Shown here in pieces: positions 50,253 to 54,926 of a stretch of DNA of 64,000 nucleotides. The notes under the pieces were generated by a model. It saw nothing but the letters and a program-made list of their open reading frames with translations, was not told where the DNA came from and did no database searches. Location of the stretch: NCBI RefSeq assembly GCF_017355785.1, contig NZ_JAFEWE010000016.1:62001-126000 (forward strand). The letters run 5' to 3'. Source of the DNA: Desertivirga arenae (GTDB lineage Bacteria; Bacteroidota; Bacteroidia; Sphingobacteriales; Sphingobacteriaceae). Position 1 is the stretch's first letter. Each line of letters opens with the position of its first letter. The position numbers and the translations under genes were made by a program.

Positions 50253-50278
50253 AAAAAAGCCAGCATTTTTCAAATGCT
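50253..50278 (-). terminator. Intrinsic terminator of the minus-strand receiver gene
   Basis: On the minus strand AGCATTT, loop GAA and AAATGCT form a 7-bp stem followed by GGCTTTTTT. The arm starts at the stop codon of the gene (50278-50280). Confidence 0.7.
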
Positions 50279-50664
50279 TAAGCAGCAGGTGATTGTGCCC
50301 CATCCTCCGCTAAAAAAATTTTGATCAGGTCCAGTAGTTCGTTCACCTCAAAAGGCTTTCTTAAAATTCCATTCGCCCCGTACTCTTTAATGGCTGTTTC
50401 GATCCTCTCATGAGAAGAAACAATCATTATGGGAATGCCTGCGCTCTTTGATTCAGACTTTATTTTCCTGCAGACATCCAATCCGTCATGACTCCCCATT
50501 TGAATATCCAGCATTATAAGATCGGGAAGAAATTGATGAATGTCTTCCTCAATATTCTCAGGAGACAGGGCTGTATATAATTCATACCCCTCTATAGTAA
50601 GGATCAGTATCAGAGTATCTAATATATCCTCGTTATCGTCAACTATAAGTATCCGTTTAGACAC
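50278..50664 (-). CDS. Stand-alone response regulator receiver protein (first of three)
   Basis: A 128-aa protein consisting only of a receiver domain: ILIVDDNEDIL with the acidic pocket, phospho-acceptor Asp in LIMLDIQMGSHDGL, Ser/Thr switch in IMIVSSHERI and Lys in LRKPFEVNELL. No output domain exists. The start is GTG (50662-50664); no in-frame ATG is available upstream. It is a paralogue of the plus-strand receiver at 50905 (shared DPENI/SPENI-DLI-LDIQMG layout), with which it is divergent across a 240-base gap. It could act as a phosphate relay or by protein-protein contact. Confidence 0.92.
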   Translation of the reverse strand: MSKRILIVDDNEDILDTLILILTIEGYELYTALSPENIEEDIHQFLPDLIMLDIQMGSHDGLDVCRKIKSESKSAGIPIMIVSSHERIETAIKEYGANGILRKPFEVNELLDLIKIFLAEDGAQSPAA

Positions 50665-50904
50665 AGGTCTTTTATTCGCTAATTCAAATTAATTTGGGAG
50701 GCAAACATAGCAATTCTTTAAGGAAGTACGCAGTTTGTGAGTTGTAATAAATCCCGGCCTGATTTTTTCTTTAAGACACTGCTTTAGTTTTAGCAGATCT
50801 TTGTAATTCCAATCGAATTAAGCATTGCTAAAAATAAATTTCAAAAATTTAACAAATGGGCAGGTTTTTGCGGGAAATACTTGGTCTTACATAATTATTT
50901 AAGA

Positions 50905-51294
50905 ATGGGAAAGTTAATACTATCGGTAGACGACGATAGGGATATTTTAGATTGTCTGGAACTGATTTTACCAGCAGAAGGCTATTCTGTGGTAACTTCA
51001 GTTGATCCTGAAAACATTAGAGCAGATATAGCAGAATATAACCCTGACCTTATTCTGCTGGATATCCAGATGGGAGCCTACAATGGTCTTGAGATCTGCA
51101 AGGAATTGAAGTCACTGGATGACATTCGAGATATTCCTATACTCATTCTATCCTCTGATGACAGAATTTTTGAAGCCGTTGGTAAATATCACGCAGACGG
51201 GATAATAAGTAAACCATTCGACATTAGTGGATTAATTGCCGCGATAGACAACTTTCTCGCTGCTAAAATAATCTCATTGCCCCGTGCCTCCTGA
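50905..51294 (+). CDS. Stand-alone response regulator receiver protein (second of three)
   Basis: Receiver domain only, 129 aa from the ATG at 50905 (MGKLILSVDDDRDILDCLE); a TTG 24 bases upstream would add an unlikely N-terminal extension. Key residues are the acidic pair in SVDDDRD, the phospho-acceptor Asp in LILLDIQMGAYNGLE, Ser in ILILSSDDRI and Lys in IISKPFDISGLI. It is most similar in this window to the divergent minus-strand receiver. The two faces share DIQMG, so they probably dock with the same partner. It converges with the third receiver gene; the candidate partner kinase begins about 600 bases downstream. Confidence 0.92.
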   Translation: MGKLILSVDDDRDILDCLELILPAEGYSVVTSVDPENIRADIAEYNPDLILLDIQMGAYNGLEICKELKSLDDIRDIPILILSSDDRIFEAVGKYHADGIISKPFDISGLIAAIDNFLAAKIISLPRAS

Positions 51295-51348: not shown

Positions 51349-51708
51349 TTAGGCCACAAGTTGATTTTTAACACTTGAAATTAGGTCATTTAAATCAAAA
51401 GGTTTAGATATTACATCGTCAGCACATACTTTTGCAAGTGCTTCTTTAACCTGATTATTTGTTGAGAGTACAATGATTGGAATATCCCGACTGATCTTTG
51501 AACTCTTAAGGCTTTTACAAAATTCAGCTTCTTCAAAATAGGGACTAATAACGTCGAGAAGAATGGCATTAGGTTTTCGTTTTTCGAGAAGCCCACGTAG
51601 TTCCTGAACGGTTTTTACACCTTCAACAACAAAACCTTCCTCGTGCAAAATCAGCGATATAATAGAAAGAATATCACTGTCCTTTTCCAGAACAAAAATT
51701 CGTTTCAT
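51349..51708 (-). CDS. Stand-alone receiver protein with altered acidic pocket (third of three)
   Basis: A receiver domain of 119 aa. The phospho-acceptor Asp is present in ILLDVISPYF, with Ser in IIVLSTNNQV and Lys in VISKPFDLNDL. The normal acidic pair DD at the end of the first strand reads E-K-D (VLEKDSDIL), which would weaken magnesium binding and phosphorylation. The loop after the Asp (ISPYFEEAE) is also atypical, where receivers usually have MP-x-MDG. It may be a poorly phosphorylated or phosphorylation-independent relative. The gene lies divergent to the large PAS kinase at 51900, with 191 bases between them. Confidence 0.9.
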   Translation of the reverse strand: MKRIFVLEKDSDILSIISLILHEEGFVVEGVKTVQELRGLLEKRKPNAILLDVISPYFEEAEFCKSLKSSKISRDIPIIVLSTNNQVKEALAKVCADDVISKPFDLNDLISSVKNQLVA

Positions 51709-51899: not shown

Positions 51900-54800
51900 A
51901 TGTCTTCTAACAATATCGATTTTACACATCCTGAAGAACTTTTGATTTTTGAATCTCTTCCCGGTAACTTCCTTTTATTATCACCCGATCTTGAAATCAT
52001 TGGGGCCAGTAACAATTATCTGGAAACGACTGGTAAAGAAAGGGAAGTAATTACGGGAAAGTATCTTTTTGACGTTTTCCCTATATCCCCAGAGTGGCTG
52101 CAGGGCCAGGATGGGGGAATCCGCGATTCTTTAGAGGAGGTGATAAGTAGCCGTAAAGAGCATCACATCGAATCAATGCGTTTTGACGTTCCCTCAAAAG
52201 ATGGACAAAGTACTGAAGAACGATATTGGAAAACAACCAATAAGCCAGTACTGGGAAAAAATGGTGCCATCCGGTATATCATCCATCATACCGAGGATAT
52301 AACCCAAGAGGTCCTTAATGAAAGGTATTTGCAGGAGGCGCTTAAAACTGAGCGAAAAGCTACAGCAAAAGCAAGTATGCTAAGTGTACAGATAGAGCGT
52401 TTATTTCATGATATACCTGCTCAGATGGCAATTCTTAGTGGAGATGATCTGGTTTATACTTATGTGAATCCACAATATCAGCAGGAGCTCTTCCCTGGTC
52501 GAGAGGTGCTGGGCTTACCCTTATTGGCTGCTCTGCCGGAGATCTTTGGTCAGGCCATCTGGCATATTTTGCAGAAGGTCTACCAAACAGGAGAACCGCA
52601 CATAGAAGCGGAGATGATGGTTCATCTGGCGGCTCATAAAGGAGGAGCCGTTGAAGAACACTATTTCAACACCGTTTATCATCCAATGAGGAACGAAAGG
52701 GGAGAAATTGATGGGCTGCTCAGTTTTAAGTATGAGATAACCCAACACGTGGCAGCAAGGAAGAAATTGGAAGTTAGTGAAGCCCGTTTGCTGGAGGCTC
52801 ATTTGGATTTAAAGGAGTCTTATGAAGAATTACAGGCCATTCATGAGGAACTCCAAGTATCGAATGAAGAGTTAAAGGCTACTAATGAGGAATTGAAAAC
52901 GGCCCAGGAAAGTTTAAGCAGTTTGAACGCGGAATTGGAAGGAAGAATAGGAGAGCGCACAAAACAACTTACGGATAGCCTTGAAGAACAGCAGGCACTG
53001 AATGAGGAACTGGCTGCTACAAATGAAGAATTGAATGAAACGCAACTGGTACTTAAGAAGATACTTAATGGCTTGAGAGAAAGTGAGCAACGCTTCAGAA
53101 ACCTTGTTCGAGATATAAAGGTTGGAATTGTTCTCTTGATGGGTGAGGAAATGGAAGTTGCGATAGTGAATGAAAGTTACGGGCGTCTTATTGGTCGCCC
53201 GGTAGAAGAACTGGAAGGCGAACTTCTTTTTGATGTTATACCTGAAGCAGAAAAAGATTTTCGCCCGATCATTGATCAGGTCCGTTTATCTGGCCAACCT
53301 TTATATTTAAATGATCATCCCTATTTTGTTTTTAAAGACGGGCAAACAATTAATGGCTTTCTTGACCTTGTATATCAGCCTTACCTAGAACCTGATGGTA
53401 GTGTTAGCGGCGTAATGGTGGTTTGTCAGGACGTTACTGAGCAGGTTACTGCACGACGGAAATTAATAGAAAGTGAAGAACGCTTTCGATTTATGCTTAA
53501 CGCCATTCCCCAGCAAGTTTGGACAGCGAGCCCTGAGGGCGCATTAAATTATGTGAACCAGGTGGTCACCGATGACTTCGGGTATAACGGGGAAGAAATT
53601 GTAGGTTATGGATGGCAAAAGTTTATTCATCCTGAAGATCTTCAAAGCTGTTTGAAGGCCTGGAATCTGGCTTTATCAGGCGGAAAAGAGTATGAAACCG
53701 AATTTCGCCTGCTTATGAAAGATGGAGAGTATGTTTGGCATATAGCCCGCGCCTTGCCTTTCTTCCAGGATGGTCAGATTGTACAATGGCTGGGCACAAA
53801 CACCAACATTCAGCTTCAGAAAAATAACGAACAGAAGAAAGATGAGTTTATGTCTATTGCCAGCCACGAATTAAAGACTCCTTTAACAAGTATTAAGGCT
53901 TTCAATCAGATCATGCAGCGAATGGAAGCTCCAGAACGCTTGAAAGTTTTTATAGGTAAATCGGCTGATCACATTTATAGGTTGGAAAAACTTATCAACG
54001 ACTTGCTGGATGTTACAAAGATTTCTGCAGGAAAGATGGAGTACGACATGAAACTATTTGATTTTACAGCTATGCTTACTGATGCAGTGGAAAGTGTGCA
54101 GTTGAAAAGCGAGAAACATCAGATACTTCTTCGTTACTCAAAGCGTGTTAATTATACAGGAGACAGGTTACGTCTCGAACAGGTGATCAACAATTTTCTC
54201 AGTAATGCTATCAAGTATTCACCCGATGCGACAGAGGTTATAATCAATTGCCAGGTTGAAGAAAATAGTATAATTGTGTCGATTCGTGATTTTGGGATAG
54301 GTATCGATAAAGCCCATCTCGATAAGTTATTTGATCGCTTCTATCGTGTAGATAATACTGCTATGCGCTTTGAAGGCTTAGGTCTTGGTTTATTTATTTC
54401 TTCAGAAATATTAAAGAGACATCAGGGCTCATTCTGGATTGAAAGTGAACTTGGCCAAGGAACCACTTTTTATTTCCGTCTGCCTTTAGAGGAGCAAAAA
54501 GCCGAGATTGTTGTAGCCAATGACGATCTATACTATCATGATAGTTCAATTACTATCATGTATAATGATGAGGCAAAGAGGTTGGATGTCGACTGGACCG
54601 GCTTCCAGGATTTTGACAGTGTTCAAGCCGGTTGTTTAAAAATACTTCGAATACTGAAACATCATAAGGTAAGCAAGGTACTTAATGATAATACACATGT
54701 TATGGGGACCTGGTCTGAAGCAGCTGAATGGGTAGGTAAGGAGTGGTTTCCCATGATGGAAGAAGCTGGTCTCTGTTATTTTGCCTGGGTTTATTCTCCC

Positions 54801-54926
54801 AGTGCTTTCAGCAAGCTCTCGGCAGATAAAAGTGTTGAAGTAAAACTTGACGGTGTTATAACTCGCTTTTTTAACGATATACATGCTGCCAATAAATGGC
54901 TCAATTCTATTGCCGAAAAATTTTAA
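51900..54926 (+). CDS. Soluble PAS histidine kinase with C-terminal STAS/SEC14-like domain
   Basis: The 1008-aa protein has no signal peptide or membrane helix. It has an N-terminal PAS (about 12-140), a second PAS (about 160-290), a long coiled coil with repeated EELQ/NEELKATNEEL units (about 300-390), PAS three and four (about 395-640), HisKA with His656 (IASHELKTPLTSI) and HATPase (GLGLGLFISSEIL, to about 866). After this comes an extra domain of about 125 residues with VDWTGFQDFDSVQAGCLKIL, LNDNTHVMGTWSEAAEWV, EWFPMMEEAGL and YSPSAFSKLSADKS. That pattern fits the STAS/SEC14-like proteins of Bacteroidota. No receiver or DNA-binding output is present; the three nearby receivers are candidate partners. 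Confidence 0.92.
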   Translation: MSSNNIDFTHPEELLIFESLPGNFLLLSPDLEIIGASNNYLETTGKEREVITGKYLFDVFPISPEWLQGQDGGIRDSLEEVISSRKEHHIESMRFDVPSKDGQSTEERYWKTTNKPVLGKNGAIRYIIHHTEDITQEVLNERYLQEALKTERKATAKASMLSVQIERLFHDIPAQMAILSGDDLVYTYVNPQYQQELFPGREVLGLPLLAALPEIFGQAIWHILQKVYQTGEPHIEAEMMVHLAAHKGGAVEEHYFNTVYHPMRNERGEIDGLLSFKYEITQHVAARKKLEVSEARLLEAHLDLKESYEELQAIHEELQVSNEELKATNEELKTAQESLSSLNAELEGRIGERTKQLTDSLEEQQALNEELAATNEELNETQLVLKKILNGLRESEQRFRNLVRDIKVGIVLLMGEEMEVAIVNESYGRLIGRPVEELEGELLFDVIPEAEKDFRPIIDQVRLSGQPLYLNDHPYFVFKDGQTINGFLDLVYQPYLEPDGSVSGVMVVCQDVTEQVTARRKLIESEERFRFMLNAIPQQVWTASPEGALNYVNQVVTDDFGYNGEEIVGYGWQKFIHPEDLQSCLKAWNLALSGGKEYETEFRLLMKDGEYVWHIARALPFFQDGQIVQWLGTNTNIQLQKNNEQKKDEFMSIASHELKTPLTSIKAFNQIMQRMEAPERLKVFIGKSADHIYRLEKLINDLLDVTKISAGKMEYDMKLFDFTAMLTDAVESVQLKSEKHQILLRYSKRVNYTGDRLRLEQVINNFLSNAIKYSPDATEVIINCQVEENSIIVSIRDFGIGIDKAHLDKLFDRFYRVDNTAMRFEGLGLGLFISSEILKRHQGSFWIESELGQGTTFYFRLPLEEQKAEIVVANDDLYYHDSSITIMYNDEAKRLDVDWTGFQDFDSVQAGCLKILRILKHHKVSKVLNDNTHVMGTWSEAAEWVGKEWFPMMEEAGLCYFAWVYSPSAFSKLSADKSVEVKLDGVITRFFNDIHAANKWLNSIAEKF

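Follow-up and report, generated by a model that had tools for sequence, protein, structure and literature searches.

The histidine kinase encoded at positions 51900..54926 (+) of the window, by which we mean a 64,000-nucleotide stretch of the Desertivirga arenae genome (assembly GCF_017355785.1, contig NZ_JAFEWE010000016.1, positions 62,001 to 126,000 of the forward strand), continues behind its ATPase domain into a C-terminal tail with a predicted STAS fold. Comparison with related kinases shows a stable fusion of this tail to one clade of kinase cores, from which it is separated by a linker of near-constant length. We regard it as an evenly balanced proposition that the tail serves as a STAS-like switch which docks another protein and is fixed on the output side of the histidine kinase core.

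Recurrence of the fusion and its coupling to the kinase core

The gene is an uninterrupted open frame of 1008 amino acids (aa) in which Pfam recognises PAS, HisKA and HATPase_c domains. Its sensor part (51945..53801 (+), residues 16-634) has PAS_4 matches in four stretches, the best PAS-model stretches being 16-128, 172-283, 401-513 and 551-634, of which the third lies below its cut-off; a coiled coil is probable around residues 290-405, given weak matches to coiled-coil families there. The HisKA domain (53838..54032 (+), residues 647-711, Pfam E 3.6e-15) bears the H-box SHELKTP, starting at residue 655, in which His656 is the phospho-acceptor expected for the family. With the HATPase_c domain (54159..54491 (+), residues 754-864, Pfam E 1.7e-29) and its N, G1, F and G2 boxes, these features identify the protein as a histidine kinase. 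About 144 residues follow the end of HATPase_c at residue 864, in the same unbroken frame. They comprise a linker (54492..54530 (+)) of nearly fixed length and variable sequence, and the STAS-like domain (54531..54923 (+), residues 878-1008), recognised by an AlphaFold model and a structural match to RsbS; in that model the folded part spans residues ~878-1004 (54531-54911). An initial annotation of this DNA had described a STAS/SEC14-like continuation of the kinase at 54540-54926, which is right within a few residues, and all four of the stretches that it quoted are present, within residues 897-977.

That annotation had also proposed a survey for the same fusion, and had raised the possibility of a unique fusion created by a misread stop codon. 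The window genome encodes seven copies of the tail (E <= 1e-27), the six besides the window's own lying in frames of 624-817 aa, and each of the seven follows a kinase core that has both an H-box and a G2 box. Among named genomes, for which the best 80 of 134 tail loci were kept, 64 of the 80 loci hold an H-box, a G2 box and a tail in one frame (one of them, L129, with its start cut). Two more (L142, L153) are kinase ends cut at a contig edge, another 13 are genes of 133-141 aa that stand alone, from Hymenobacteraceae (Rufibacter, Pontibacter and Sabulibacter; tail identity 45-52%), and one, from a Mucilaginibacter metagenome-assembled genome (L113), is a short frame of doubtful status. A survey of the order found a tail match in 114 of 400 genomes, all within the window's own family, and placed 141 of the 149 matches in frames of at least 399 aa and the other 8 in frames of less than 200 aa. 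The fusion is far beyond chance, because six more copies in the genome follow an H-box and a G2 box and 141 of 149 order matches lie in long frames, and its recurrence in the window genome, the named loci and the order survey rules out an assembly or stop-codon artefact.

Within the family, a tail match occurs in 28 of 151 genomes and 11 of 25 genera, and many species of Pedobacter and Mucilaginibacter carry the fusion. In this family the fused form is the rule and the stand-alone form is not usual. The suggestion that the tail is kin to small Bacteroidota proteins usually encoded alone thus holds for the kinship, given the 13 single-domain genes of Hymenobacteraceae and weak matches to DUF7793 and SpoIIAA-like families, and fails for the usual form in the window's family. 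When the domain tree was tested for a single origin of the fusion, the p-AU (approximately unbiased test) was 0.457 (38 fused rows versus 40), which neither rejects nor establishes one, on few columns and with long branches meeting; L190 was excluded from this tree, and the partial L078 from alignment A1.

A tail match was also found in 17 of 296 genomes in a survey of the phylum. Beyond the window's family, the frames measure 116-340 aa with the exception of L189 (656 aa), a different histidine kinase (HisKA 4.1e-7, HATPase_c 1e-20) with a diverged domain at its end. In L182, a possible one-component regulator, a related domain lies ahead of a LytTR DNA-binding domain (2.9e-24), and in L183/L194 two copies of the domain share one frame. 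The fusions to LytTR and to a different histidine kinase indicate that the domain has been repeatedly used in regulators.

The tail keeps a nearly fixed distance from the kinase core: of the 64 named fusions, 1, 12, 36 and 15 have 71, 72, 73 and 74 residues, respectively, between the G2 box and Trp899. Pairwise identity averages 61% for the core and 53% for the tail but 17% for the linker (43 sequences, 903 pairs), and the identities of core and tail correlate across the same sequences (Mantel r 0.46, with 0 of 2000 permutations as high); these figures rest on 42 of the 64 core-plus-tail stretches plus the window's own. Among 101 kinase-core matches in the window genome, the top seven, the window's included, are exactly the seven tail bearers, and in a tree of 30 of these 101 cores the seven form one clade (support 99/99). 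Their sensors differ: several PAS domains in the window kinase, PAS and GAF in L063 and L064, PAS in L065 and L066, and DUF4118 and PAS in L067 and L068. Since sensors differ while core and tail stay together, the tail travels with the catalytic core and not with the input.

Predicted fold and conserved serine of the tail

A STAS fold is confidently predicted for the tail, from a model rather than a solved structure. Structure prediction took in 58 of the 80 tails (less than 80% alike), or 42 of the 64 core-plus-tail stretches (less than 75% alike), plus the window's own sequence in each case. The AlphaFold model of the tail (59 rows) has a predicted local distance difference test score (pLDDT) of 89.6 and a predicted template modelling score (pTM) of 0.85; the model of HisKA, HATPase_c and tail together has a pLDDT of 82.3 and a pTM of 0.71. 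Its best Foldseek matches are SpoIIAA (E 6.5e-4) and then RsbS (E 1.4e-3), which bears out the STAS-like fold put forward in the initial annotation. VIA-align places RsbS at the top (Z 13.1, root-mean-square deviation 2.3 A over 114 residues), followed by stressosome entries (Z 10.3-11.8), SpoIIAA (Z 10.1-11.6) and a Dyadobacter STAS protein (Z 11.0). The Sec14-like SpoIIAA structures 2q3l (Z 9.6) and 2ook (Z 9.0) rank below RsbS and SpoIIAA, and no entry named SEC14 or CRAL-TRIO is among the 50 structure matches listed for the model; the SEC14 or lipid-binding half of the earlier suggestion found no supporting evidence.

Sequence profiles place the tail more loosely. The window's tail alone has no Pfam family match at E <= 1, and its two NCBIfam matches (E 0.04-0.05) were taken as chance. 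The SpoIIAA-like family PF11964 weakly matches 9 of 45 members (E <= 1, best 5.1e-5) and DUF7793 (PF25056) weakly matches 18 of 45 (best E 7.5e-4), the window's tail being in neither set. Two tails of the window genome reach 15 bits against the DUF7793 cut-off of 26, and hhalign aligned the tail with the window genome's own DUF7793 protein over 26 C-terminal columns with a probability of 31%. Neither of the two PF11964 places in the window genome, and none of its eight PF01740 places (the canonical STAS family), is a tail. Among solved structures, a profile search found no match at E <= 10 and a single-sequence search only one antibody chain (E 0.29).

Residue conservation was counted over 102 fused rows without L113, of which 87 are distinct over residues 884-1001; distinct sequences were used because some named and other loci are the same records, and L153, cut by a contig end, was excluded from the serine counts. 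A wider set of 103 fused rows, which includes duplicates and L113, was also counted. Trp899, Gly901, Phe970, Phe991 and Trp1000 are invariant (87/87). Near-invariant are Asn931, Gly936 and Ser939 (86/87 each) and Asn929 and Trp938 (85/87 each), followed by Trp944 (83/87) and Asp930 (79/87). The motif N929-D930-N931 (54684..54692 (+)) lies in strand beta-3. Ser939 (54714..54716 (+)) opens helix alpha-2 of the AlphaFold model (model residue 69), and an excerpt of PMC2954212 places the phospho-serine of SpoIIAA at the start of alpha-2. A serine that may be phosphorylated is present at this place in nearly all fused tails, and it falls in the register of the STAS phospho-serine and its DS motif only by extending a non-significant hhalign block, which covers 21 columns and ends, in both tail and STAS, on the strand preceding the serine. 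Where STAS has Asp before the serine, 85 of the 87 distinct fused tails have Trp.

A possible docking switch and its alternatives

As we picture the docking switch, PAS and similar domains would carry the sensor input, and His656 would still pass its phosphate to a separate receiver. The initial annotation had envisaged an output other than phosphotransfer, which is possible. The tail, by way of its short linker, would pack on or beside the ATPase domain and couple the signalling state of the kinase to the binding of another protein; alternatively, the docked protein would set kinase activity through the tail. Ser939 would be the on/off site, either phosphorylated or read out unmodified. Docking, the direction of control and phosphorylation of Ser939 are steps that we infer.

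Several observations weigh against this reading. The canonical STAS profile PF01740 is absent for the tail at E <= 1 and does not figure in the list of 25 families that 45 members matched, and alignment of the tail with six STAS domains of the window genome was non-significant (hhalign probability 0.4%); because the profile does not recognise it, the tail is classed as STAS by fold only. Unrelated proteases score Z 10.3 and 9.4 in the VIA-align list, so only its top rows are clearly above background. Over 68 loci, the 18 largest neighbour clusters contain no conserved gene as a partner candidate, and 82 of the 114 tail genomes lack the RsbS stressosome. Stand-alone kin (13 from Hymenobacteraceae, 8 from family f9) have a serine at the position of Ser939 in 15 of 21 cases. 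Finally, six kinases with eroded ATPase motifs keep the tail while their serine position is not conserved (A, M, S, L, T, E).

These six (L057, L050, L061, L059, L062 and L142) make up a second tail-bearing group, in which the H-box is of the SHxxRKP/S type and the F box has eroded. L057, L050, L061 and L062 have lost most of the G2 glycines, whereas L059 keeps part of them and L142 all; a normal G1 box is also missing in L059 and L062, and the N-box Asn in L062, which looks like a pseudokinase that retains its STAS-like tail. Five of the six form one clade in the domain tree, with L062 separate. Loss of the serine together with eroded motifs fits a serine that would matter only with an active ATPase, a rule to which L142 (all G2 glycines, yet Glu) and L059 (eroded, yet Ser) conform only imperfectly.

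Perhaps the tail instead senses a ligand in the manner of the Sec14/CRAL-TRIO-like SpoIIAA proteins: it would bind a small molecule, hydrophobic or aromatic, or else a membrane surface, and report it to the adjacent ATPase domain. We consider this unlikely, though worth keeping in view. The conserved aromatics are abundant (Trp899, Phe970, Phe991, Trp1000, Trp938 and Trp944), and the weak PF11964 matches and the scores of 2q3l and 2ook point in the same direction; the proteins of these two structures are proposed, in the excerpted text of PMC2954212, to carry nonpolar compounds, and the same excerpt has the SpoIIAA serine replaced by Glu or Asp in most members of their family. RsbS and SpoIIAA nevertheless fit the tail model better, and a tail bound to the core while the sensors vary would be unusual for an input domain and would call for one ligand common to all.

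A different role for the serine would be cross-talk with partner switching, in which a separate GHKL kinase of the RsbT/RsbW type phosphorylates Ser939, a PP2C phosphatase reverses this, and stress gates the histidine kinase. In favour of such a scheme, Ser939 opens alpha-2 and would line up with the DS motif of the window genome's STAS proteins if the non-significant block is extended. Elsewhere the window genome also holds what, judged by motif, are an RsbV-like gene, a STAS/GHKL/REC-PP2C-like cluster and two modules of the RsbR-RsbS-RsbT type. No such gene, however, is a conserved neighbour of the tail kinases, RsbS occurs in only 32 of the 114 tail genomes, and the Asp that should precede the serine is Trp in nearly all tails, which leaves the scheme rather improbable.

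Quite improbable, too, is a tail that merely stabilises the kinase or its dimer as a structural cap, with no part in switching. Static packing would equally suit a near-constant linker and the co-divergence of core and tail. Yet the kinase core does not need the tail, as there are seven tails to 101 kinase-core matches in the window genome; related domains exist as single-domain proteins and fused to LytTR, and neither the serine nor the NDN motif varies much.

The GHKL ATPase domain of histidine kinases belongs to the same superfamily as the serine kinases SpoIIAB and RsbT. That it might phosphorylate Ser939 of its own or its dimer mate's tail, which would unite two-component phosphotransfer and a built-in partner switch in one polypeptide, strikes us as very improbable indeed: the serine is near-invariant with intact ATPase motifs and variable in the six eroded kinases, but these six may represent one or two events and include the two exceptions named above.

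Genomic surroundings and known systems

Returning to the docking switch, the window offers possible partners for phosphotransfer. Three lone receiver genes, without output domains and on alternating strands, lie just upstream of the kinase: a lone CheY-like receiver domain (50278..50664 (-), named by its motif), a second (50881..51294 (+)) that is 48% identical to it, and a lone receiver-like protein (51349..51708 (-), a 27% identical match). We infer that these may be the phosphotransfer partners of the window kinase.

Over the 68 loci, the largest non-kinase neighbour cluster is a long, probably signalling protein (12 loci), and small receivers occur at 9. No GHKL serine kinase with a PP2C phosphatase beside the tail is found among the 18 largest clusters, and those clusters that span 5-6 loci inside Mucilaginibacter or Pedobacter resemble ordinary common gene order. 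An RsbQ-like hydrolase gene or fragment lies near three window-genome copies (L064, L065, L066), and a BLUF gene near two (L063, L065). As general partners both were rejected, occurring at 4 of 68 loci (one weak, L111, 19% identity) and at only 2 of 68, respectively. In L065 (3763-6446) and L066 (10459-11870), a Pfam alpha/beta hydrolase gene, presumably RsbQ-like, lies directly upstream of a PAS gene. RsbQ may pair with kinases here, because the PAS protein of L065 is a histidine kinase without PP2C; a BLUF gene adjoins it.

Some further observations concern the wider genomes. An eighth tail survives in the window genome as a decayed fragment that two stops interrupt (C12:17455-17592; L008/L170). 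Behind each of this genome's two RsbR-RsbS-RsbT-type modules (L202, L203), the next gene opens with a second GHKL-like domain. Of the 114 tail genomes, 32 have RsbS, versus 41 of 286 others (odds ratio 2.3, Fisher p 0.002, uncorrected for kinship), a comparison which assumes that the tail and RsbS surveys sampled the same 400 genomes; it is an association only, and dependence of the tail on a stressosome is ruled out as a requirement. The stand-alone gene of Rufibacter and Sabulibacter occupies one common genomic place (L131, L135, L144 and L147, around 6000), between flanks that, judged by their sequences, are nadD-like on one side and frr/pyrH-like on the other. In family f9, two genomes (G221, G311) hold 9 and 14 copies of the domain in short frames, a large unexplained expansion.

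The tail can be compared with several known systems. RsbS, SpoIIAA and RsbV (PF01740) resemble the tail in fold, in the serine at the start of alpha-2 and in an Asp in beta-3, whereas the tail is without a PF01740 match, has Trp in place of Asp before the serine, is fused behind HisKA and HATPase_c, and has no serine kinase or PP2C as a conserved neighbour. The small SpoIIAA-like (PF11964) and DUF7793 proteins are close to it in length and give the weak profile matches; the DUF7793 proteins, unlike the tail, are unfused, since all 21 matches among 247 phylum genomes lie in frames of 128-219 aa. In YtvA, a LOV-STAS protein, a STAS domain likewise follows a sensory domain (PMC10949197, in excerpt), although YtvA has no histidine kinase core and its STAS domain provides the output where a kinase otherwise would. 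In hybrid histidine kinases (HK-REC), HATPase is likewise followed immediately by a domain of some 125 residues; the tail, in contrast, is STAS-like by fold and not a receiver, the Foldseek match to Spo0F having a TM-score (template modelling score) of only 0.43 (E 0.08). In the SiaB/SiaC/SiaD system, SiaC acts on a signalling enzyme as a switch of the STAS type (PMC9239204, excerpted part), and SiaC chains match the tail model in Foldseek (E 0.03-0.1), but these are separate proteins and the target is a diguanylate cyclase. TciR, a fusion of REC and RsbW, combines two-component and partner-switching parts in one protein (an excerpt of PMC12826045), yet it joins a response regulator to an RsbW-like kinase and not a histidine kinase to STAS. 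The literature searched contained no description of a histidine kinase that has a STAS-like domain at its end, in line with the initial annotation, which knew of none; protein-database annotation may well name such proteins.

New here are the single clade of tail-bearing kinases, the near-fixed linker and the near-invariant serine. If the tail is a docking switch, two-component signalling and STAS partner switching, which are normally found on separate proteins, would here be joined in one polypeptide, and with a linker of near-constant length and only one serine to address, this idea is directly testable.

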